From: Elusimicrobiota bacterium
Lineage (GTDB): Bacteria > Elusimicrobiota > Elusimicrobia > UBA1565
NCBI GenBank assembly: GCA_016196755.1
Contig: JACPXC010000013.1
Coordinates: forward strand, 1-53,629
DNA: 53,629 nucleotides
Direction: 5' to 3'
Under the pieces are notes generated by a model, which searched no databases, had not been told where the DNA came from, and worked only from the letters and a program-made list of their open reading frames with translations. Positions within the stretch are counted from its first letter, which is position 1, and each line of letters begins with the position of its first letter. Shown here piece by piece: positions 4,894-53,053 of this stretch. The position numbers and the translations under genes were made by a program.

Positions 4894-7800
4894 ATGACGA
4901 ACACCTCGCCCCTCAAGCATCTCACCGCCGCCGTCGTCTCCGCGGCCCTGATCGTCCTCTCGCCCGGGATCGCCTCCTACGAGGCCGCGGCCCAGTTCGT
5001 GGTCGGCGGCGCCGGCCGGGCCGTCAGCGTCGTCCCCGGCGGCCAGGCCGGCGCGGTGCGCACCGCCCCCGTCACCCTATCCCCGGCGCCTCTGCCGACC
5101 TCGCTGTCCTTGCCCGGCACGCTGCCCGTCTTACCGTCGGTCTTGCCTTCGCTGCGGCCGGCCGTCGCACCCGCGGCTTCCGCTCTCGCCGTCCCGGCCG
5201 CCGCCGTGCCGGCTGCCGCGCCGCGGGCGGCTTCCGCGGTCCCTGCCGCGGCAAAAGCCATGACGCCCGCGGCCGCCCCGTCCGAAGCCACTTCGGCCCC
5301 TTCCTTTAGGAACCTCCTGGCCGCCCCGCGCACCGTGGCCCTCCCCGTCGCCGAGATCGCCGCCATGCCCGGCGGCCAGGCCCGCGACGCCGGCGCGTCG
5401 ATGATGGACGCCATCCTCGGCCTCAAGGCGAGCCCTGCTGCCTCGGCGGACCCCGTCCCCGCCGACTCCTCCCTCGGCACCGTCCGCCGCGCCGCGCTCA
5501 GCGTCCCGACTTCCCGTCCTTTCGCCGGCCGCTCGGTCCCGCTCAACGGCGTGGCCGACCCGGCTCCCCAGGGCGCGGTCTCCAAGGCCCTGGGCGCGGT
5601 CAAGGCCGTCGCCCTCATGGCGGTCTCCGGCGCCGCGGTCTACGGCGCTCACCTCGCGGCGGCGGCGCTGCTGCCCGCCGTCTTCGGCACGGTGCCCGTG
5701 GTGGCGGTCTGGGCCGTGAGCTCGGGCGTGCTGCTCCTGCCGATGGCGCTCTGGGCGCGCTACCGCCTGGCCCTGCGCGACTCGCCGCGCCTGAGCGGCG
5801 TGAAGACGTCCCTCGACCTTCTGACCGGCGCTTTCCTCGGCGCGGTGGCCGTCGCCGTGCCGCAGGTCATGGGCGGGGCGCTCCTCGCCACGCCGCTGGT
5901 CGGCCTGGCCGCCTTGGGCGGCTTCGCCGCCCTGGGTGCGGCGGCGGCGGGCAAAGACGGCGGCACGGGCGGCATCTTCGGCGCCATCGCCGCTTGGGGC
6001 GCTTTGAACCTCATCGCCCCGCTGTTGGGCACCGCGGCGGCCTCGACCCTGACCCTCGGCGGGGTTCTTGGGTTGATGGCCCTGCCCGCGATGACGACGA
6101 TCTCATTCTTCCTCGGCCGCATCGTCGCCTCGGCCGAGTCCGGTCGGCCGTTTGCCGTGCCGGGCTCGATGCAGCAGATCCGCTTCCCGGCCTACACCTG
6201 GGTCATGACCGGCGTGGTCTTCGCCCTGCTCACCGGCTACGGCGCGGTCTGGACCAACGTCGCCTTCGGGATCTGGATGTTCCTCGGCAACACCCGGCTG
6301 TTCAACATCCTCTTTGCCGGCGCCGCGGTCTGGGCGGCGGCCACCGGCTTTGCCGCGCCGATCACGTTCCTGGTCTTGGCCTTCGCGCCTGAGCGCGCGG
6401 CGATGGCCACCGAGTGGCTCCTAGGCAAGCTCCTGCCCAAGGGCGACCCGGCCCCGTCGACCAAGGCCGAGCCGATCAAGCTGGCCGAGGAAGGCTCGGG
6501 CGACGGGCGCTGGCCCCAGTTCCACTACTGGGCCAAGACCGCGCTGGCGATCGGTTCCCTGCTGGCCCTCGGCGGGGTCATGAGCGCCACGGTCTTCGGG
6601 CTCAAGACCTTCCTCTCCAACCTCGGCGTGGCGGCGGCGATGTCGATCATCCCGCTGATCTTCTCCAAGAAGCTCATCAAGCTCGTCATGAAAGCCGAGC
6701 CGATGGACGAGGCCAAGGACCCCGAGGTCTTCGGCATCATGCGGGAGCTGCGCGAGCGGATCAACGCCGGGCGCGCGGCCAAGGGCGACAAGCCCATCCC
6801 GATGCCCGAGATGGTGAACGTGCCGATGCCGGTGCCCAACGCCTTCGCCACCGGGTTCTCACCCTTCAGCGCCATGGTGGGCGTCACCAACGAGATGAAG
6901 GACATGACCCTCAACCCGGAGCGCACGCGCGCCGGCCTGATCCGGCTCATGTACGTCTCGGAGGCCAACTCCAAGCAGTTCCGGGTGTTCCGCCGCGCCA
7001 TCCGCGGCTCGATCGCCGGGATCCCCGAGGGCGCCGGCCCGCAGGAGATCGTCCTGGCCCTGCGCAACGCCGACCAGGCCTCGCTCAAAGCCCTCGGCGT
7101 GCGCACCCTGCGCGGCGTCATGGGCCATGAGTTCGAGCACGTGATGCACCGCGACATGATCCTGGGCTCCATCGCCGGGACGATCGCCTCGGGCATCTCC
7201 TACGCCTCCTACGGCGTGCTCTGGGGCGTCGGCCACGCCCAGGCCCTGTTCGCCCGTCTCTGGGCGAGGCTGACCGGCAAGGGCAAGGATGTGAAGGCCG
7301 CGCCCAAGTATTACGACGGGCCCCGGTCGAACGCCTCGGGCACCGATGTCCTCGACGCGGGGTCTCCGGTCCGGCCGGAGGCTTTCGAGCCGGCGTCGGC
7401 GGCGGTGGCGGCCCAGTCCCTGATCGGGCTGGTCAAGATCTTCGCCGCGCTCTGGGGGCCGGTCCTGGCGACCATACTGAGCATGGCCTCCTCGCGGACC
7501 CGCGAGGGCCACGCCGACGAGGGCGGGGCGATCCTCACCGAGGACCCCGAGGCGCTGGCGCTGGGCCTGGGGATGCTGGTCACCTGGCAGATGCCGGCCG
7601 GCTTCACGCTGCGCCGCGAGCTCCTGCCGATCATCGCCAGCCAGGCGCACGTCATGACGGTCAACCCGCTCGAGCAGCTGCGCAACGCCGGCCAACTGCC
7701 GAAGCTCGACGCCGTCACCAGCGCCCTGGTCGGGAAAGAGGACGACTTCTTCTTCAACCTCTTCATCACCCACCCCGACACCATGCAGCGCATCGAGCGG

Positions 7801-9621
7801 CTCTACGAGATGGCGGAGGCGCTGGCCGCGCGTCTTCGCGGCCAGCCGCCTCCCGGCCCCACCACGCGGCCGCCCGGGAGCCTCCGGGCGGCCGCGGGGC
7901 GCCGGGTGAGCGAGGGTGTCGATCCAGACACCCTCGCCGCACTTTCGGTCCCGGGCCTCGACGGGCGCCTGGAGCAGGTGGTCGAGGCCTTCGCGGCGCG
8001 CAGCGCCGCGCGCGGTCTCGGGCACCTGCCCTGGGCGCTCGGCGAGCTCCTGGCCCAGGGCGGCGTGGTCCGCTACGCCGACGCCGGGCTGGGCGAGGAC
8101 GCGCCGCTGGCGTTCTTCGACCCCGCGCTGAAGGCCGTCTACCTCGACGCCGCCCTGCTGCGCGTAGACCCGGACCTGCAGGGCGCCGCGCTGGCGGGTT
8201 TGTTCCAGCAGGTGCACGACTGGCTGGACGCCCGGGTCTTAGACAGCGCGGAGTCCCGCGCCCGCTCGGTGCTGGCCCAGGACGCCTATCTCGAGGGCTT
8301 CGCGATGGACGCCTTGGCGCATCGGATCGACTTGTCGAATCCCGTCGAGAAGGTCCTCTACGAGGGCGTGGTCGCCAACCGCCTAGCGGCGGCGGCCGGC
8401 TTCCGGGCCGCCGCGGCCACGGCCGGCGAGTGGCCCACCCTCGGCCAGCTGGCCGCCAAGGCGCGCTCGGAGCTGGCCCTCCTCGAGCGGCGCCGCGCCG
8501 AGTTCACCGACGAGCTGGGTCTGGTCCGCGGCGGCTTGGCCGCCGCGCCCGGCGACTCGCGTCTGGCGCGCCAGGAGCGCCTGCTCTCGGAGAAGCTGCG
8601 CATCCTCGAGGGCAGCCTGCTCCTGACCCGCGCCCAGGCCGCCGCGGCCGAGCGCGAGGCCGGCGAGCCCGACGCCGAGGCGCGGGCCACCGCGCTGGCC
8701 TCCCGCCTCGACGGCTATCCGGCGCCGGCCTCGTTCGGTCCGCTGGTCCCGGTGACCCAGCGTCCGACGGTCGACCCGGACCTGGCCCCGGCCCTGACGC
8801 TTCTGCGCCAGGCCATCAAGGACGCGAAGGACCCGGCGGTCCGGCGGCTCAAGTACCTGCTCACCGCCCTCGACGCCGTCCTCGAGCGCGGCGGCCGCGT
8901 CCTCTACGCCGCGCCGGGGGAAGGCGCGGCGGCCTACTTCTCGCCGGTGACCCTGGACCTCGTGGTCGGGCGGGAGTTCAAGAACGCCCGGCCGGAGCTC
9001 GTGGCCGCCCTGCTCGTCCATGAGCTGACCCACGCCGCCGACTACCTCGGCGTACCGCGCCCCGGTGAGAGGGCCTGGCGGCCGCGGCCGATGACGCGCG
9101 AGACCGAGCGCAACGCCTTCACCAACGAGGCGATCTTCGCCGGGGCGTTCGATCCCGCCGAGCTGGCTGGGCTGCTCGACCGGCGCAACCCGTCGGAGCT
9201 GGCCGCCTACAGCCTGGTCTACCACGCGCGCGCGCGCTGGCTGGAGGGGAAGACCAGCCTCGAGGCCATGGTCTCCGACGCCTATACCCAGCTCTTCGGA
9301 GCCCATTTCGAGGGCCTGCAGACGGCCGCCCAGCTCTACGAGGAGGTCGAGCACCGCAAGCTGGCCCCCGTCCTCGAGTCCATCGAGGAGCTTGGCCGGC
9401 GCGTCGTCCTCCTGGAGGGTGCGCTCGCCCGCGGGGAGTCCCATCGTGCCGCCCAGCTCGAATCCGCGGGCCGGTCCCTGGCCCTCTACGAGTCCCTGCG
9501 GACCCTCCACCGGCGCGAACTCGAGCTTTTGGGGCAGGCGGAGCAAGCCGAGGAGGACGACGCCCCTGCCGGGCCGCCGTCCGAGCGCAGCTTCCTCTTC
9601 TGGGGCCCGAGGCCCGTTTAA
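4894..9621 (+). CDS. Giant exported/membrane metallopeptidase: Ala/Pro-rich N-terminus, M48 domain, pseudo-zincin, second zincin
   Basis: 1575 residues. Signal-like segment (1-35, ending AAAQ), a ~170-residue Ala/Pro/Val/Ser-rich stretch containing VPGGQAG, then about ten hydrophobic segments (roughly 225-640). The M48 site is complete: HEFEH at 745-749 and third ligand Glu871 in REGHAD. Near 1060-1160 a zincin-like unit has lost its ligands (LFQQVHDW at 1103-1110). A related unit near 1300-1420 keeps HELTH (1376-1380) with candidate third ligand Glu1405. M48 enzymes such as HtpX are membrane quality-control peptidases; the joint role of the extra units is unknown. GGAGG ribosome site before ATG. 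Three receiver genes follow at once. Confidence 0.85.
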   Translation: MTNTSPLKHLTAAVVSAALIVLSPGIASYEAAAQFVVGGAGRAVSVVPGGQAGAVRTAPVTLSPAPLPTSLSLPGTLPVLPSVLPSLRPAVAPAASALAVPAAAVPAAAPRAASAVPAAAKAMTPAAAPSEATSAPSFRNLLAAPRTVALPVAEIAAMPGGQARDAGASMMDAILGLKASPAASADPVPADSSLGTVRRAALSVPTSRPFAGRSVPLNGVADPAPQGAVSKALGAVKAVALMAVSGAAVYGAHLAAAALLPAVFGTVPVVAVWAVSSGVLLLPMALWARYRLALRDSPRLSGVKTSLDLLTGAFLGAVAVAVPQVMGGALLATPLVGLAALGGFAALGAAAAGKDGGTGGIFGAIAAWGALNLIAPLLGTAAASTLTLGGVLGLMALPAMTTISFFLGRIVASAESGRPFAVPGSMQQIRFPAYTWVMTGVVFALLTGYGAVWTNVAFGIWMFLGNTRLFNILFAGAAVWAAATGFAAPITFLVLAFAPERAAMATEWLLGKLLPKGDPAPSTKAEPIKLAEEGSGDGRWPQFHYWAKTALAIGSLLALGGVMSATVFGLKTFLSNLGVAAAMSIIPLIFSKKLIKLVMKAEPMDEAKDPEVFGIMRELRERINAGRAAKGDKPIPMPEMVNVPMPVPNAFATGFSPFSAMVGVTNEMKDMTLNPERTRAGLIRLMYVSEANSKQFRVFRRAIRGSIAGIPEGAGPQEIVLALRNADQASLKALGVRTLRGVMGHEFEHVMHRDMILGSIAGTIASGISYASYGVLWGVGHAQALFARLWARLTGKGKDVKAAPKYYDGPRSNASGTDVLDAGSPVRPEAFEPASAAVAAQSLIGLVKIFAALWGPVLATILSMASSRTREGHADEGGAILTEDPEALALGLGMLVTWQMPAGFTLRRELLPIIASQAHVMTVNPLEQLRNAGQLPKLDAVTSALVGKEDDFFFNLFITHPDTMQRIERLYEMAEALAARLRGQPPPGPTTRPPGSLRAAAGRRVSEGVDPDTLAALSVPGLDGRLEQVVEAFAARSAARGLGHLPWALGELLAQGGVVRYADAGLGEDAPLAFFDPALKAVYLDAALLRVDPDLQGAALAGLFQQVHDWLDARVLDSAESRARSVLAQDAYLEGFAMDALAHRIDLSNPVEKVLYEGVVANRLAAAAGFRAAAATAGEWPTLGQLAAKARSELALLERRRAEFTDELGLVRGGLAAAPGDSRLARQERLLSEKLRILEGSLLLTRAQAAAAEREAGEPDAEARATALASRLDGYPAPASFGPLVPVTQRPTVDPDLAPALTLLRQAIKDAKDPAVRRLKYLLTALDAVLERGGRVLYAAPGEGAAAYFSPVTLDLVVGREFKNARPELVAALLVHELTHAADYLGVPRPGERAWRPRPMTRETERNAFTNEAIFAGAFDPAELAGLLDRRNPSELAAYSLVYHARARWLEGKTSLEAMVSDAYTQLFGAHFEGLQTAAQLYEEVEHRKLAPVLESIEELGRRVVLLEGALARGESHRAAQLESAGRSLALYESLRTLHRRELELLGQAEQAEEDDAPAGPPSERSFLFWGPRPV

Positions 9622-20618: not shown

Positions 20619-22631
20619 ATGCTGCCCCGTTTCCTTATATCCATCCTCCTGGCCGCGCCGTCGGCGGCCCAGGTGCGCGTCCAAACCGCCCCGGAGGTCG
20701 TCGCCGTCCCCGGCGGACAGGCAGGCGTCTCCGCCGCCGGCGGCGCGGCGTCTCCGGCGCTGAGCGCGCCGTCGTCGGTGCCGTCGTTGGTCCTGGCCCT
20801 GCCGCCTGGTTCCGTCTCGCCGACGGTCATTCCTGCCGCGGCCGCGGCTCCCGCGGCGGCCGGTGCAGCTCCCGCTCCCGCAGCCGCTGTGGCGGCGCCG
20901 GCCGCCGTGGTCAGCCTGCCGCCCTCGGCTATCGCCGCGCCGCAGGCCGCCCCGCAGGTTCTGGCGGCTTGGGGGGGCCCGGCGCCGGCTGCGGCCGGAG
21001 CTGCGCAGGCTGCGGCGGGCAAGCCGACTGCCGGCTCTCCGGGCGGCGCCGCCCAGAGCGCCTCGCTCGGCCGCCTCTTCGACGGCGCGGCCGCGCCCAA
21101 CCGAAACGGCGCCTTCGACCTCTTCGCCCCCGCGCGCTCGCTCTGGGGCGCGGCGCTGGGCCTCTGGCGCGGTCCCGACACGGCCCCGGCATTCCCGACC
21201 CGCCCCGACCAGAGCGTGCGCGTGGCCGGCCAGACCTACAAGCTGGGGCGCGTCCTCGAGGCGACCCCGGAGTGGAGTCTGCATGAGGCGGCGGGCTACC
21301 GCTCCGAGGAGGCGGTGCTGGTCTTCGCCCCCGAGGCCAGGGCGGCCTTCGAGGCCGAGAAGGCAGCGCTCGAGGCCTTGGCGCGCACCGACGTGCCGCA
21401 CTCGGAGCTCAAGGCCGCCGGAGACGGCGTCCTCGTCCTCGTCCGTCGAAACCTCAACGGCTGGAACACCAGGGAGATACTCTCCGGCGGCATCAAGCAG
21501 GGCCAGGTCAACGGGATGATGGACCTGGCGGCCCGGCTCATCCGCCGCGGCGCCACCGCCGTCCTCATGCCCGACGAGGTCATCTGGGAGCATTGGCGCG
21601 GCCACTGGGCCCTGCGCCGCGGGGCGGGCTACCGCGCGGGAACGGCCTGGGACACGCTGGCGCAGCTCTGGGCTTGGGAGGGCGGGGTCGCCGACCGCGC
21701 GGCGTTCCTCTCCGGCCTCCGCGGCCGGCTGGGGCCGGAATCGTCGGAATGGAAGCGCCTGGCCGCCGAGGCGCAGGGACAGGTCGGCCTGCAGGCCGCC
21801 TTCGCGGAACTGGCGCGGCGCGACGCGGCCAGGCCCGCCCCGAAGGCGCTGAGTTTCGAGCCGGGCCGCTCCGACGCCGTGTTTACCGACGAGTTGGTGA
21901 GCCCCCGCGCCCTCGTCAAGCGCTTGGGCTACGACCCCTTCTCCGTCAAGGAGCGCACCGCCCTCCACGCCGACGACCCCGGAAAGCTCAACACCAGCGT
22001 CGCCATGCTCGAGCCCAAGGGCGGGCGCAAGGCCGTCCTCAAGGGCGCCGACCAGTACATCATCCGCAACGAGCTCTTTGTCCGCAAGGTCGTGCGCGCG
22101 TTCTTTGGCGCCTACTTCGACACGCCGGGGGCCTTGGCCGTCCTGCGCGGCTACGAGTCTTACATGGTCATGGAGACGGCCGGCGGCGGCAAGAGTTGGG
22201 CGGGCCCGAGCCTGACGCGCGAGCAGCGCGCCGCTCTGGCCGTCCTGGTCCATACTTTCGGTTTGGGCGACATGAACCCCGGAAACGTCTTCTACGGCGA
22301 GAAGACCTGGCTCATCGACTTCGAGCAGGCCGTGTCGCGTCGGAGCCCCTCCTCGAACCGCATCCCCGACGAGCGCATCCTCCTGGAGCTGCCCTGGGTC
22401 AACGCCCGGGAGGTCCCGCCGATGGAGGACTTCCTGCCCGGCGTGAGGGCCTGGCGGGAGTTCTTCCTCAAGCCCGAGACCCTGCGCGCCGTGGAGCGCA
22501 TGCTCGGCGAGAGCGGCTTCGGCCCCGAGGAGATCCCGCGGGCGATGGCGGCCTTCCGGGCCAACGTCTCCGAGCTCGAATGGACCATCCAGGCCGACGT
22601 CGATTTCGCCGACGGCCTGCGGCGCCGATGA
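20619..22631 (+). CDS. Exported Ala/Pro-rich protein with atypical kinase fold (paralogue of 24334-25911)
   Basis: 670 residues from the ATG at 20619, chosen because it begins the signal peptide (ending SAAQ). VAVPGGQAG and a ~120-residue Ala/Pro stretch follow. The C-terminal ~200 residues have kinase-type landmarks: Lys475 (AVLKGAD), Glu485 (RNE), catalytic loop GLGDMNPGN (Asp551, Asn556) and LIDFE (Asp567, DFG-like), closest in style to APH/HipA/FAM20-like kinases. A phosphotransferase outside the cytoplasm is inferred. The gene overlaps the ceramidase-like gene by ATGA. Confidence 0.75.
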   Translation: MLPRFLISILLAAPSAAQVRVQTAPEVVAVPGGQAGVSAAGGAASPALSAPSSVPSLVLALPPGSVSPTVIPAAAAAPAAAGAAPAPAAAVAAPAAVVSLPPSAIAAPQAAPQVLAAWGGPAPAAAGAAQAAAGKPTAGSPGGAAQSASLGRLFDGAAAPNRNGAFDLFAPARSLWGAALGLWRGPDTAPAFPTRPDQSVRVAGQTYKLGRVLEATPEWSLHEAAGYRSEEAVLVFAPEARAAFEAEKAALEALARTDVPHSELKAAGDGVLVLVRRNLNGWNTREILSGGIKQGQVNGMMDLAARLIRRGATAVLMPDEVIWEHWRGHWALRRGAGYRAGTAWDTLAQLWAWEGGVADRAAFLSGLRGRLGPESSEWKRLAAEAQGQVGLQAAFAELARRDAARPAPKALSFEPGRSDAVFTDELVSPRALVKRLGYDPFSVKERTALHADDPGKLNTSVAMLEPKGGRKAVLKGADQYIIRNELFVRKVVRAFFGAYFDTPGALAVLRGYESYMVMETAGGGKSWAGPSLTREQRAALAVLVHTFGLGDMNPGNVFYGEKTWLIDFEQAVSRRSPSSNRIPDERILLELPWVNAREVPPMEDFLPGVRAWREFFLKPETLRAVERMLGESGFGPEEIPRAMAAFRANVSELEWTIQADVDFADGLRRR

Positions 22632-24079: not shown

Positions 24080-24337
24080 CTTCTTGGCTTCGCGGGCCGG
24101 CGGGGGGGCGGGCCTTTCGTCGTCGACGACCTGCGGGTCCTCGGGCGTGCCCACCGCCTCGATGATCTTGAGCAGGACCGGTACGTCCTTGGCCTTGCGC
24201 CAGTCGACCGTGCGGCTGGCGCCCTCGGGGGCCACCTTGGTGTCGGGCGTCAGGAGGCCGGGCATGGCCTTGAGGCGCTCGACGGTGTAGGGCCCGAGGA
24301 TCTTCTTGGCGCGCTTGTCGTAGATCCAGAACCTCAT
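24071..24337 (-). CDS. Small GYF_2-like domain protein
   Basis: 88 residues starting at the ATG at 24337, which overlaps the stop of the upstream kinase-fold gene (ATGA). WIYDKRAKKILGPYTVERLK resembles the GYF_2/DUF4339 fold (GPYT...L), usually a peptide-binding module. The C-terminus is Pro/Ala/Lys-rich. Probably cytoplasmic. Role unknown; coupling suggests partnership with the kinase-fold protein. Confidence 0.65.
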   Translation of the reverse strand: MRFWIYDKRAKKILGPYTVERLKAMPGLLTPDTKVAPEGASRTVDWRKAKDVPVLLKIIEAVGTPEDPQVVDDERPAPPPAREAKKLL

Positions 24338-25911
24338 GGCGTCATCATCTCGAGGACGGCGGCCGCCGCCTCTCGGGCGGCGGGGAGGGCCTCGCCATCC
24401 TCCGTGACGGCCCGCAGGTGGGCCCGAGCGCTTTCCGAACTCGTCAAGCGGCGCAGGTTGCTCGCCAGGATCGGGAAGTGGTAGAGCGGCATCTCCTTGT
24501 TCACCGACAGGGCGTCCTCGGCCAGCGCGCGCATGGTCCGGGCGCGGGCCTCGGCGGCCGAGCCGTCTTTGGAGAGCAGCGCGCGGTTGAACGCGCTGAG
24601 CGCGCGAAGCTGCTTCTCGCTGAGCTTGTCGTAGCCGCCCTTCTTCATGAACAGGCTGTTGGCCACGTAGAGGTCGGCCTCGAGCACCGCGTCGAAACGC
24701 GCCACGTTCCCGCGGATCAGCGCGGCGTCGCGCTTGACTTCGGACGCGGTGAGGCCGGCCTTGGCCAAGAGGGCGTCGAGCCCGCCGCCGGCATCGAGCT
24801 TCGCGAAGGCCTTCTCGAAGGCGGCCATGGCCGGCCGGAAATCGGCGGCGTCGTTGAGGTAGCGGTCCTCGAGCCAAGGCATGTCCGCCGTGGTGATCAG
24901 GGCTTTGTTGGGCTTGCTCTCGTGGCGGGCCAACTCGGTGTCGATGAGGCTGTAGCGCCCTTGGTCGTCGAGCAGGAGCGCGCCGGGATTCAGGTCGCCG
25001 AGACCCAAGGCCGTAGCCAGCACGAAGAGCGGACCGAAGAGCCTGCGGGGGAGATAGGACCGCTCGTCGTGCAAGTGAAAAGAGCCGTAGGGCTTGCCCG
25101 GGGCCTCCTCCATGGCCACCATCGCGCGCGGCGTGGCCAGCGGGTTCCAGGTGTGGACGGGATAGGCCACCGCGGCCGGCATACTGAACGCGTCCTTGAA
25201 GATGTCGGCGAAGACCGGATGGGACACGAAGAGGCGCGAGAGGAGCTCATTCTGGGCCGCTTTCCGGGGCGTGAGCTCCTGACCGATCGGGCTGAAGCGC
25301 TTGAGGACCACGGGATGGCGCGAGACGCGGCGCGTGGAGGACCAGTCCGTCTTGGAGGGGTCGCTCAGGAGGCGGCCTTCCGCCGCCACCGGGTCGAAGG
25401 GCAGGCGTCCGGCGGCCTCGCCGCGCGTCACCCAGGAGTTGTCGAAGGCCTTGGCGGCCCAGGCCGACGCGGCTTCCGCCCCGGCGTCGGCCGCGGGCTT
25501 CTCGGAAGCGGCGCGGCCGGCGGTCTCGACGAGCTTGAGGGGGGGCTTGGCGTCGGGGGCCGCGGCTTTCCCGGATTCGGCGGGAGAGGGGGTGGGGGCC
25601 GCGACGGCGTTGACCGCGCCAACCGGGGCGGCCAGAGCGGCGGCGGCCGCGGGAGCAGGGCTGGCAGCCTCGGCGCGCTGGAGGATGCTCGGGGGCGCGG
25701 AGGGCGAGGCCGTCGGCGTGACGGGAGCCAGGGTCGGGGCGGTAAGCCCCGGGGAGCTAAGCGTGGGCGCTAGGGTGGGGACGCTGACGACCGGGCGGAT
25801 CGGGACGACGGCGCCCTCGGCGGCGACGGCGGCGGCGCGGATCTGGGCCGCGGCGGGGGCCGCCGCCAGGACAGCGGCCAAGAACCCCGAGAAGAGGGCT
25901 CGGACGGGCAT
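24334..25911 (-). CDS. Exported Ala/Pro-rich protein with degenerate kinase fold (paralogue of 20619-22631)
   Basis: 525 residues from the ATG at 25911 (signal peptide ending AAAQ), preferred over the ATG at 25947 because a -10 box lies 7 nt upstream. An Ala/Pro/Val-rich stretch (~25-125) precedes the kinase-like half: Lys204 (VVLKRF), Glu222 (QNE), loop GLGDLNPGA (Asp306, Asn308) and LIDTE (Asp324). The metal-binding Asn at Asp+5 is Ala311, so activity may be altered or lost. The tail (RGNVARFDAVLEADLYVANSL) matches the other paralogue (RANVSELEWTIQADVDFADGL). Both are secreted and sit 1.7 kb apart in opposite orientation. Confidence 0.72.
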   Translation of the reverse strand: MPVRALFSGFLAAVLAAAPAAAQIRAAAVAAEGAVVPIRPVVSVPTLAPTLSSPGLTAPTLAPVTPTASPSAPPSILQRAEAASPAPAAAAALAAPVGAVNAVAAPTPSPAESGKAAAPDAKPPLKLVETAGRAASEKPAADAGAEAASAWAAKAFDNSWVTRGEAAGRLPFDPVAAEGRLLSDPSKTDWSSTRRVSRHPVVLKRFSPIGQELTPRKAAQNELLSRLFVSHPVFADIFKDAFSMPAAVAYPVHTWNPLATPRAMVAMEEAPGKPYGSFHLHDERSYLPRRLFGPLFVLATALGLGDLNPGALLLDDQGRYSLIDTELARHESKPNKALITTADMPWLEDRYLNDAADFRPAMAAFEKAFAKLDAGGGLDALLAKAGLTASEVKRDAALIRGNVARFDAVLEADLYVANSLFMKKGGYDKLSEKQLRALSAFNRALLSKDGSAAEARARTMRALAEDALSVNKEMPLYHFPILASNLRRLTSSESARAHLRAVTEDGEALPAAREAAAAVLEMMTP

Positions 25912-43943: not shown

Positions 43944-44762
43944 ATGAAAAACATGATCCGAGCCGTGTTAGCCCTGTCGCTCTCGGCCCCGGCCTCCGCC
44001 GGGACCTGGGCCCAGGCCTTGGCGGGTGTGGCCGGGAGCCGCTTCCTGAGCGCCGACGTCCCGGCGCTGGGCAAGACCGGCGCGATCGCGGCGCCCAAGC
44101 GCGCCGCGTTCTCCCCGACGGCCGCCAAGGGCGGCCTGCTCGAGCAGGCCGAAGCCTTCGCCGACGAGGTGATCCGCGTCGACAAGGCGCTCGACGGCGC
44201 CTACGCCGCCTACCGCAAGAGCCTGAGCGACGCGGACCTCGACGCCTTGGCGCCCTTAAGGAGGGAGCGCGACTATTACGCGGGCGTCTGGCGCTCGATC
44301 GTCGAGCCGACGCGCGCGCTGCCGAAGGACGACGCGCGCGTCACGCCGGTGCTCCAGGCGCTGTACCGCTACCTGAGCCCGATCCCGGCCCGGGTCGAGA
44401 AGCTCGAGAAGGCCAAGGCCGTGTCGGCCAAGGCGGTCGAGAAGGCCAGCGCCGCCACCGGCGCCGCGGAGGCGCGTCTGCACGAGGACGACCGCAAGTC
44501 CCTCCAGCAGTTCGGGCTCATCGAGGTGGACTGGGCCAAGCTCGAGGCGACCATCGACCCCATGCGCAAGGAGTCGCCCGAGTACATGGGCTGGGTCAAG
44601 GAGGCCTTCGAGACGAGCGTGGCCTGGCGCAAGACGGTCAAGGTCGACGCCAGCCTGGCCGAGCAGTACACGTGGGTCAACGCCGACTATGTCAGGAACT
44701 CCAAGCTGGCCAAGGACCTCATGGACAAGAAGCTCGGGGTCGGTCTGAAGAGGAAGAAGTAG
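43944..44762 (+). CDS. Exported helical protein of unknown function
   Basis: 272 residues with a signal peptide (1-19, ending ASA). The mature part is largely helical and Ala/Lys/Glu-rich, with a probable coiled coil around 145-185 (LEKAKAVSAKAVEKASAATG), then a Trp-containing domain (YMGWVKEAFETSVAWRKT) and a very basic tail (GLKRKK). It has a GGAGCC ribosome site and follows the serine protease gene closely, so it could be its substrate, inhibitor or partner. I do not recognise a family. Confidence 0.75.
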   Translation: MKNMIRAVLALSLSAPASAGTWAQALAGVAGSRFLSADVPALGKTGAIAAPKRAAFSPTAAKGGLLEQAEAFADEVIRVDKALDGAYAAYRKSLSDADLDALAPLRRERDYYAGVWRSIVEPTRALPKDDARVTPVLQALYRYLSPIPARVEKLEKAKAVSAKAVEKASAATGAAEARLHEDDRKSLQQFGLIEVDWAKLEATIDPMRKESPEYMGWVKEAFETSVAWRKTVKVDASLAEQYTWVNADYVRNSKLAKDLMDKKLGVGLKRKK

Positions 44763-48252: not shown

Positions 48253-49683
<1,431 letters not shown>

Positions 49684-49763: not shown

Positions 49764-49820
49764 TTGGGCCATATACCAGGCCCAAATTGGGCCCTCGGCC
49801 TCATACCGGCCCTTGGGGCC
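49764..49820. promoter_or_regulatory. Array of TTGGGCC/GGCCCAA half-sites before the S2P-S1P gene
   Basis: TTGGGCC (49764-49770), GGCCCAA (49779-49785) and TTGGGCC (49787-49793) alternate in orientation, followed by a GGCCC-TT-GGGGCC unit (49808-49820). The first pair is a perfect 7-bp inverted repeat with an 8-nt spacer. The array ends 6 nt before the -10 box, a position suited to an operator. The rest of the gap 49684-49763 shows nothing. Confidence 0.45.
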
Positions 49821-49837: not shown

Positions 49838-52800
49838 ATGAACGACATCCTGCGGCGTGCGACGGCGGCCGGTCTTTCCTCTATATTGATCCTTCTGGCC
49901 CCCGGCGTCCCGGCGTGGGCGCAGACCGCGCGCATCTCCGTGGCCCCGGCCGCGGGCTCCGTGACGGGCGCCATGGGCGCGGCCGGCGCCGTCTCCCCGG
50001 TGCGCCTGCAGGCCCCGGCCCTGAGCGTCCCCTCGACCCTCTCCGTGCCCGTTCTGAGCCTGCCGTCCGCCGCCCCTCGGCTCTCCGTCCCGGCTTCCGC
50101 CGCCGCCGCCGCCGTGCGCGCCGAGGCCGGCGCCTCGGCCGTCGCCGCCGGCTCCGCCGCCCAGCTCCGATCTCCCGCCGTCGCGGCGTCCGCACTTGTC
50201 CCAGCTTCCCCGGCCGCCGCCCAGGCCGCGCTCTCGGCCTCCGCCGCCCAGCGCGCCCCTCCGGCTTCCTCGCGCGCCGCGCTGGCGTCGGTGGCGGCCG
50301 CCGTGACGCGGATACGCCCGGGCGCCCGTGCCGCCCTTCCCGCGGCCCTCAACGCTTTCTTCGACGGCGGGGTCCGCCGCGGCGCGGAGTCCCTTGCGGT
50401 CAACGGCGTCAAGGAGACTTCCAAGCGCTCCAGCGGCCTGAACAAGGCGACGCCCGATGAGACGCCGGCCCGGTCCGACGAGGGGCCCGACTCGACGCGC
50501 GGCCTAGACGAGCTCGGCAACCCCCAGCGCCGCGTCAGCCCCGGCGGGCCCGACGATAGGTCCGACCCCGACGGCTCGGACCGCGGCGGCAACAGCGAGC
50601 TCTTGAGCATGATGTCGCCGAGCTGGCTCGGCGAGGCGGGAAGCTTCCTCAACACCTGGACCGGGGCCAGCCTCGTGCTCGGCACGGCGCTCGGCCTGGG
50701 GGTCCTGACCTCCGCCATCAGCCCGGCCTTCCTTATTACCGCCCCTCTCTACGCGCTCTTCGTCATCCCCTCGCTGATCCTCCACGAGATGGGCCACGCC
50801 AAGGCCGCCGAGGCGCTCGGCGACCCCACCGCGCGCATCGCGAACCGGCTGGGCTGGTCGCCGCGCGACCTCCTGACCCACATCTCCCCGTTCATGACGG
50901 TCGTCGTGCCGCTGTTGACCCTGGCCTTCACGGGCATGCTCTTCGGCGGCGCTGTGCCGGTGCCCGTCGAGCAGCGCAACCTCGATAACCCCGACGCCGA
51001 CATGGCCAAGATCGCCTTGGCCGGCCCGGCGGTCAACTTCGCCCTGGCGCTGGGCGGCGCGGCCGTGGCGGCCGGGCTGGCCGCCGTGGGCGCCGCTCCC
51101 ACGCTGGTGTGGGCCGCGGCCTCCTTCGTGCTCTTTAACTCGATGCTCGGCCTCTTCAACCTGCTGCCGTTCGCGCCGCTCGACGGACACCACATCCTGC
51201 GCCACATCCTCTCGGACTGGCTGAGGATGCCGGCGGCCGCGCAGTGGCTCGACGCGCGCGCCGGGTCGCAGCTGTTCGCGCTGGTCCTGGCCCTCATGTA
51301 CGGCGGCGCCTATATCGGGGCGATGGTCAACGGCTTCGCGGGGCTCCTGCTCTTGCCCGCCGGCATGCTGGCCGGCAGCCTGCTCGCGGACACGGTGGGC
51401 GGGCCGCGCGCCGAGCCGCCGGCCGCCGTCGCCACGATGCCCGACTCGCGCGTCCTGCTCGTGCGCCTCGAGGGCGGCGCCCGGCCGCTCTCGAGCGACA
51501 TCCATCTCGGCCTCATCGACGTGACCAAGCGCGGCGGGATGAAGCTCTTCTCGGCCGCCCAGTCGGCGCTGTCGACGGAGCTCGAGGCGGCCGGCCTGGG
51601 CCGCGAGGCGCTGCTCGGCTACGGCGCCTCGCCGGTGGCCGCGTATCGGCGGATCAACACCGCCACGATCCGAGTGCCGGAGTCCGCCATCGAGCGCTTC
51701 AAGATCGACATGGCCGCGCGCGGGTTCGAGGTCTTCGAGAACGCCTCCCGCTCGATCGTCCGCCCGGTCGAGGACGACCCGGCTTTCGCGGGCAGGCAGG
51801 CCGAGCCGTCCGCGGGTGCTATCTCGATGAAGGACACCCTCAAGCTCTCCACCGCCGACAAGATCCACGAGCTCGCCCGCGCGCGCTGGGGCGACCCCGG
51901 CGTGGGCTGGCGCGCGTCGCTGGCCCGGACCCTGCGGGGGCTCTTCGGCGCGGCTCCGGCCCAGCCCAAGGTCGCCGTCATCGACACCGGCGTCGACATC
52001 GAGCACCCTCTGGTCAAGCCGGGCCTGGCCGGCCACAAGGACGTCCGGCCCGACGGCGACGGCATCGACGACAACGGCCACGGCACCTGGGTCACCTCGA
52101 TGGTGCTCAACTACGCCCCCTGGCTCAAGAGCATCACCCACTACAAGGCCTTCACCAACGGCGGCGCCACGCTCGACGACGTCCTCAAGGCCTTGACCAT
52201 GGCCGCCAACGACGGCAACCTGATCATGTCCAACTCCTGGGGCGACGACGGCGGCGACCCGGACAGCCCCGACGCGCGGCTGGTCAAGAAGCTCGGCGAG
52301 GAAGGCCACGTCATGGTCTTCGCGGCCGGCAACAACGGCTACGCCGGGGCCAACACGGTCGGGTCTCCGGCCATCGCCGCGGGCGAGCGCGTCATCGCCA
52401 CGGCCGCCACCGACAAGAACAAGAGGGTCGTCGGCTTCTCCTCGAAGGGGCCGGGCTCCCCGGTCACCAAGAAGGGCGGCAAGTGGAAGGACTATCCGCG
52501 CAAGCCCGACGCCGCCGAGCAGGGCAACGACACCGAGGGCGCCTGGCCGGGCGGCAAGACCCGGGCCATCTCCGGCACGTCGATGTCGACCCCCAAGCTC
52601 GCCGGCACGATCGCCCTTTTGGCCATGATGTTCGGCGTCACCGAGAAGGGCGAGAAGCTCGACCGGGTCGTCAAGGCCGTCATGAGCACGCTGACCAACG
52701 AGCTCAAGCAGAGCGAGGCCGCGATCGGCTCGGGCTTTAGCGCCGCGAAGGCCGCCTACGACAAGCTGGCGGCCGAGGGCATGACCCCCTTCGCGCCCGC

Positions 52801-53053
52801 GCAGGCCGGGCGCGAGCTCGGCATGGCGGAATTCGGCGTCCTCAACGCCGTGGGGGTCGTCGCCTCCATCGCCGGCGGGATCTGGCTCAACGCCGTCGTG
52901 CTGGGCATCCTAGGGACCTTCGTCCTGCCCATCCCCTTGATCTTCGCCTACGTGGGCCTCAGGCGCCTCATGGGCGACGCGGTGCGCTGGCCCGGCTTGA
53001 AGTTCAGCCCCTCGCTCCCGTGGGGCGGGAGACGCTCCGGCCCGCGGTCATGA
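49838..53053 (+). CDS. Fused site-2 protease (M50) and subtilase (S8) membrane protein
   Basis: 1071 residues. Signal-like segment (1-29, ending AWAQ), an Ala/Pro/Ser-rich stretch (~30-165), an acidic linker (~190-255), then the M50 core with HEMGH (316-320) and LLPFAPLDG (Asp449). A propeptide-like segment (~530-640) leads to a subtilase with Asp716 (VIDTGVD), His748 (NGHGTW), oxyanion Asn832 (AAGNNG) and Ser915 (SGTSMSTP). Two C-terminal hydrophobic segments (~1000-1055) may anchor it. Both active sites look complete. Site-1 and site-2 proteolysis are normally done by separate proteins. A receiver gene overlaps its end (ATGA). Confidence 0.88.
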   Translation: MNDILRRATAAGLSSILILLAPGVPAWAQTARISVAPAAGSVTGAMGAAGAVSPVRLQAPALSVPSTLSVPVLSLPSAAPRLSVPASAAAAAVRAEAGASAVAAGSAAQLRSPAVAASALVPASPAAAQAALSASAAQRAPPASSRAALASVAAAVTRIRPGARAALPAALNAFFDGGVRRGAESLAVNGVKETSKRSSGLNKATPDETPARSDEGPDSTRGLDELGNPQRRVSPGGPDDRSDPDGSDRGGNSELLSMMSPSWLGEAGSFLNTWTGASLVLGTALGLGVLTSAISPAFLITAPLYALFVIPSLILHEMGHAKAAEALGDPTARIANRLGWSPRDLLTHISPFMTVVVPLLTLAFTGMLFGGAVPVPVEQRNLDNPDADMAKIALAGPAVNFALALGGAAVAAGLAAVGAAPTLVWAAASFVLFNSMLGLFNLLPFAPLDGHHILRHILSDWLRMPAAAQWLDARAGSQLFALVLALMYGGAYIGAMVNGFAGLLLLPAGMLAGSLLADTVGGPRAEPPAAVATMPDSRVLLVRLEGGARPLSSDIHLGLIDVTKRGGMKLFSAAQSALSTELEAAGLGREALLGYGASPVAAYRRINTATIRVPESAIERFKIDMAARGFEVFENASRSIVRPVEDDPAFAGRQAEPSAGAISMKDTLKLSTADKIHELARARWGDPGVGWRASLARTLRGLFGAAPAQPKVAVIDTGVDIEHPLVKPGLAGHKDVRPDGDGIDDNGHGTWVTSMVLNYAPWLKSITHYKAFTNGGATLDDVLKALTMAANDGNLIMSNSWGDDGGDPDSPDARLVKKLGEEGHVMVFAAGNNGYAGANTVGSPAIAAGERVIATAATDKNKRVVGFSSKGPGSPVTKKGGKWKDYPRKPDAAEQGNDTEGAWPGGKTRAISGTSMSTPKLAGTIALLAMMFGVTEKGEKLDRVVKAVMSTLTNELKQSEAAIGSGFSAAKAAYDKLAAEGMTPFAPAQAGRELGMAEFGVLNAVGVVASIAGGIWLNAVVLGILGTFVLPIPLIFAYVGLRRLMGDAVRWPGLKFSPSLPWGGRRSGPRS

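Follow-up and report, generated by a model that had tools for sequence, protein, structure and literature searches.

The window analysed here, a stretch of 53,629 nucleotides from contig JACPXC010000013.1 of an Elusimicrobiota bacterium, contains a single open reading frame of 1071 amino acids (stop codon included) in which two proteases are joined. Pfam detected both Peptidase_M50 (2.5e-13) and, at amino-acids 710 to 930, Peptidase_S8 (1.4e-29) in the same chain, as proposed in an initial annotation made from the sequence alone, and the signal and Ala/Pro-rich module described there correspond to a Sec-type signal peptide and a long linker (Table 1). The residues that it named (the HEMGH motif, Asp449, Asp716, His748 and Ser915) were exact, and none of the zinc-site and triad residues varied among 17 aligned fused homologues, which are 43-72% identical to the window protein. 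The acidic GGPDD/DELGNP repeat of the linker is kept in homologues, several copies being present in some of them. Among fused proteins, the C-terminal TM segment was found only in the copy of this species; the same module is present in L031 and L084. This segment, the acidic repeat and a downstream response-regulator gene with an overlapping start add to the initial annotation.

Table 1. Features of the fused protease locus and genes bearing a similar leader. Positions are those of the window unless a locus is named.
Feature	Position	Strand	Basis or remark
TTGGGCCCTCGGCCT element, similar to the sequence upstream of several orthologues (TTGGGNCCTNGGNCC)	49787..49801	+	3 exact matches in the 4.59-Mb genome
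TAGAAT, -10-like hexamer, 6 nt before the start codon	49826..49831	+	sequence
Fused protease ORF	49838..53053	+	1071 aa; one-ORF state conserved among homologues
Sec-type signal peptide, aa 1-28 (VPAWA/QT)	49838..49921	+	sequence; common to homologues
Ala/Pro-rich linker, aa 29-254, with acidic GGPDD/DELGNP repeat (about aa 203-252) at its end	49922..50599	+	sequence
M50 site-2 protease core, aa 295-492, RseP-like 4-TM	50720..51313	+	Pfam; AlphaFold model; structural matches
HEMGH zinc motif, aa 316-320	50783..50797	+	HExxH residues invariant, 17 fused homologues
Asp449, third zinc ligand (PLDG)	51182..51184	+	invariant, 17 fused homologues
Subtilisin-type (I9-like) prodomain, aa 536-640	51443..51757	+	structural match of the model to unprocessed pro-subtilisins
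Variable loop, aa 641-665, predicted autoprocessing region	51758..51832	+	inferred from pro-subtilisin superposition, low pLDDT and variability
Subtilase S8 domain, aa 664-979	51827..52774	+	Pfam, alignment, structure
Asp716	51983-51985	+	subtilase triad, invariant
His748	52079-52081	+	subtilase triad, invariant
Ser915	52580-52582	+	subtilase triad, invariant
Predicted C-terminal membrane anchor: hydrophobic segment, aa 999-1041, and basic tail	52832..52960	+	sequence alignment, insertion energies
Stand-alone response-regulator receiver, 128 aa	53050..53436	+	Pfam Response_reg 6.8e-23; ATGA overlap with the protease stop
Leader-bearing genes within the window (counted in the window only)	4894-9621, 20619-22631, 24334-25911, 43944-44762
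Leader-bearing gene outside the window	L004:1498-3516	+
Leader-bearing genes outside the window	L090, L092, L093, L098

The M50 part, modelled alone with AlphaFold (pLDDT 83), superposed on E. coli RseP (7w6x) with a Z score of 12.1, model residues 41 to 238 falling onto RseP 1 to 445, and on M. jannaschii S2P (3b4r) and SpoIVFB with scores of 10.9 and 9.8, respectively; its top eight structural matches were all site-2 proteases (S2Ps; Z 8.9-12.1). By its zinc motif and modelled core fold, this part is a site-2 protease, for which intramembrane cleavage is predicted. It shares with RseP, the M. jannaschii S2P and SpoIVFB the fold, the HExxH and LDG zinc site, the four-TM core and a predicted cytosol-facing site, but has no PDZ or CBS domain and adds a C-terminal secreted subtilase as well as an N-terminal signal peptide and Ala/Pro linker. 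A separate, far stronger M50 match (2.7e-56) lies elsewhere in the genome, so that the fused protein is not its only S2P.

In a model of amino-acids 255 to 1071 (mean pLDDT 76), the prodomain and the subtilase were packed together, the relative placement of the two protease halves being unsure (pTM 0.58). Unautoprocessed pro-subtilisins were the best structural matches to the prodomain-subtilase part, and model residues 282 to 721, covering the prodomain and the mature domain, aligned with unautoprocessed pro-subtilisin E (3whi) over 330 residues at 2.5 Å (Z 37.7). These matches identify the segment between the two domains, initially called propeptide-like, as a genuine subtilisin-type prodomain. 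It was recognised by structure only, its sequence giving neither a Pfam inhibitor family nor a phmmer match. The prodomain stands directly behind the M50 module and is followed by the variable loop, where self-cleavage is expected. With its D/H/S triad, modelled S8 fold and docked subtilisin-type prodomain, the C-terminal part is a subtilase of family S8. As in pro-subtilisins such as subtilisin E and Tk-subtilisin (Peptidase S8), the prodomain is docked on the mature domain and Asp, His and Ser are intact; in the fused protein, however, the prodomain is preceded by an intramembrane protease and not by a signal peptide only. The earlier term site-1-type is appropriate at the level of the subtilase fold only; in these searches, many subtilases matched about as well as human S1P, which came third by sequence profile (2.6e-16, versus 3.8e-19 for Tk-SP) and was level with numerous others in structural Z.

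RseP has four TM helices and both its ends are in the periplasm. Mapping of the core on RseP places both ends of the fused M50 module on the periplasmic side, which predicts that the subtilase lies in the periplasm and that the S2P zinc site faces the cytosol. A start of the core outside agrees with the N-terminal signal peptide, and positively charged loops can be read from the sequence on the predicted inner side. Relatives without M50 are built of signal peptide, linker, prodomain and subtilase and contain no other membrane-spanning part; since the subtilase stands right behind the signal peptide in them, its export is the simple reading there. An inverted arrangement would require amino-acids 270 to 291 to span the membrane, so that the M50 zinc site would face the periplasm, the subtilase end of the core would be reversed and classic regulated intramembrane proteolysis (RIP) would be impossible. 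The predicted insertion energy of this hydrophobic stretch, approximately 0.5 kcal/mol on a published scale, speaks for such a span. However, around half of the homologues lack the stretch or have it in weak form only, and its pLDDT is low, so that it probably makes no full membrane span. The match of the core to RseP and S2P, moreover, runs from residue 40 onwards; the inverted topology appears very improbable. The predicted geometry would suit sequential site-1/site-2 cleavage.

Within the first 38 genomes, comprising the window's own and those of relatives, many members of the genus, the family and the order carry the fused protein as one ORF. A scan of one genome per species with S8-derived patterns recovered 21 further named loci of Elusimicrobiota in which one ORF contains both sites, and its matches outside Elusimicrobiota were weak and limited to the prodomain-subtilase part. 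Matches were confined to one poorly known order, UBA1565, where they occurred in 26 genomes (295 genomes of the phylum examined), a count which takes in subtilase-only and M50-only members. No viral relatives of the fused protease were found. The one-chain M50-S8 architecture is also held by CP096137.1, a circular Nanopore chromosome of 3,802,950 bp from the order UBA1565 (PMC9476967), recovered again as G295. The initial annotation had considered that two genes might have been merged by error. The recurrence of the one-ORF architecture across independent assemblies, in 21 other named loci including this circular long-read chromosome, excludes a merger by chance or assembly, and the probability that an assembly or frameshift artefact joined the two genes is negligible.

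In an M50 tree, the fused proteins grouped together (80/90 support), next to two M50-only relatives, while S8-only proteins were intermixed with fused ones in the prodomain-subtilase tree. One S8-only protein, L028 of genome G023, falls between fused proteins there, at a very short distance to its fused neighbour, so that M50 was lost in G023; M50 is absent also in other S8-only genera. In a further relative (G307; L106:1382-3232, minus strand), Asp, His and Ser of the triad are all lost, the frame is open and the gene still adjoins the response regulator; this may be a pseudoprotease. M50 and pro-S8 distances among the fused proteins are correlated (r 0.80, Mantel p 0.0001), indicating that the two halves were inherited together. 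Taken together, these sequence comparisons indicate that the fusion arose long ago and has been passed on whole, and that neither half is indispensable in every lineage.

To judge from the sequences, a signal peptide with an Ala/Pro-rich leader is common in the lineage, and similar leaders were seen on proteins as different as an acyl-CoA dehydrogenase, an ABC exporter, an MFS protein and an M48 peptidase. The same genome contains a second M50 fusion, to an ATP-dependent unfoldase: an ORF of 2935 amino-acids (L082:2614-11418, minus strand; G000:C34) combines a signal peptide, an Ala/Pro linker, an M50-like domain, I9-like repeats and a ClpB-type AAA+ module. Two subtilase domains were also observed in one open frame of 2054 amino-acids (G000:C67:11681-14974).

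Upstream of the protease gene, the position of the -10-like hexamer, exactly 6 nt before the start codon, suggests that the transcript is possibly leaderless; TATAAT or TACAAT stands at the same distance from the start in eight other loci (L037, L052, L057-L060, L063 and L064). The TTGGGNCCTNGGNCC element is located about 35 nt upstream of the hexamer. This element was rejected as a regulon marker, having only three exact sites in the genome, the other two without the same layout.

A stand-alone response regulator lies directly downstream of the protease in 24 of the 26 loci with enough flank and is its most constant neighbour; beyond it, roughly half of the loci have thioredoxin and DNA polymerase I, and the remainder have other genes. 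The regulator occurs behind fused, S8-only and M50-only versions of the protease, and co-expression with the protease is supported by the gene arrangement. In L042 and L087, two tandem response regulators stand behind the protease gene in place of one. Like RssB-type adaptors, the receiver protein is co-encoded with a protease, but the match covers the receiver domain only. The pair might form a phospho-signalling unit, the receiver binding the cytosolic face of the M50 module to gate it or to deliver clients, as RssB does with ClpXP. The ATGA overlap would fit such a unit, as would an adjacency that persists while the genes beyond vary and the receiver gene behind M50-only relatives; S8-only relatives, in contrast, offer no cytosolic domain to the receiver. 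Moreover, the response regulator is a core gene of the order UBA1565, standing, at loci that lack the protease, behind other proteins with such a leader (M48 peptidase, MFS, ABC transporter), and the two genes are apart in family f3, so that a dedicated partnership is not established. We consider such a unit rather improbable. No conserved sigma/anti-sigma pair was found beside the protease in flanks of up to 6 kb, though such a partner may lie elsewhere in the genome. The sigma-70 gene upstream (48253-49683) was discarded as a RIP target, being RpoD-like and absent from the homologous loci.

The domains, the invariant catalytic residues, the conserved fusion and the response-regulator linkage are the observed part of the explanation that we prefer, to which we give a little less than an even chance: a lineage-specific, membrane-anchored two-site protease that would work like site-1/site-2 proteolysis. 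The signal peptide would export the N-terminus, and the RseP-like four-TM M50 core would be embedded in the inner membrane, its two ends lying outside and its zinc site on the cytosolic side, as homology and the model suggest. The periplasmic pro-subtilase would most likely mature by self-cleavage after its prodomain, and the prodomain may hold the mature enzyme near the membrane, helped in this species by the C-terminal TM anchor. There it would most likely trim exposed parts of membrane or exported proteins, after which the M50 site would cut the remaining membrane stubs; we infer both this order, with sequential cuts on one substrate, and the sharing of substrates. The two-site protease would be co-expressed with the stand-alone receiver protein.

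The main rival is a polyprotein with separately working halves. From one precursor, the subtilase would free itself by autocleavage and act as an ordinary periplasmic or secreted protease, while M50 with the prodomain would clear signal peptides or membrane stubs. Autocleavage between the halves is what a prodomain in this place predicts, the genome has many other subtilases, and S8-only, S8-dead and M50-only versions occupy the same response-regulator-linked position. Yet both active sites have stayed invariant while the fusion was maintained in several genera and three families, and the short linker between M50 and the prodomain keeps the latter at the membrane; we regard the polyprotein as a real but doubtful possibility. 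The two-site protease that we prefer retains part of the one-protein RIP machine initially proposed: two intact and conserved active sites, a real and long-standing fusion, and a predicted geometry that would suit site-1/site-2 cleavage. The remainder of that proposal fares less well, given relatives with M50 lost, S8 dead or M50 only, the lack of a conserved anti-sigma neighbour and the prodomain between the halves, at whose junction autoprocessing should sever the chain. That a single protein performs both RIP cuts under the translationally coupled stand-alone response regulator, as a self-contained signalling protease, is unlikely.

Comparison with SREBP-type RIP, which pairs MBTPS1 with a site-2 protease, is one of functional analogy. 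The subtilase outside and the M50 protease within the membrane have like relative places, as predicted here, but one chain replaces two proteins, and the comparisons made here bring the subtilase no nearer to S1P than to other subtilases. The M50 and S8 families are both well known. No report of M50-S8 fusions or of site-2 proteases in Elusimicrobia was found in the open literature, beyond which papers may exist, and the literature searched contained no description of the fusion, its conservation in one order or its receiver partner.

To our knowledge, RIP pathways use different proteins for the first and the second cut, and a central question is what makes the second cut wait for the first. 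A subtilase and a site-2 protease naturally fused to each other, together with relatives that have lost one half or the other, would offer a compact system in which the coupling of the two cuts can be tested, and the receiver protein may be a controller of a membrane protease.
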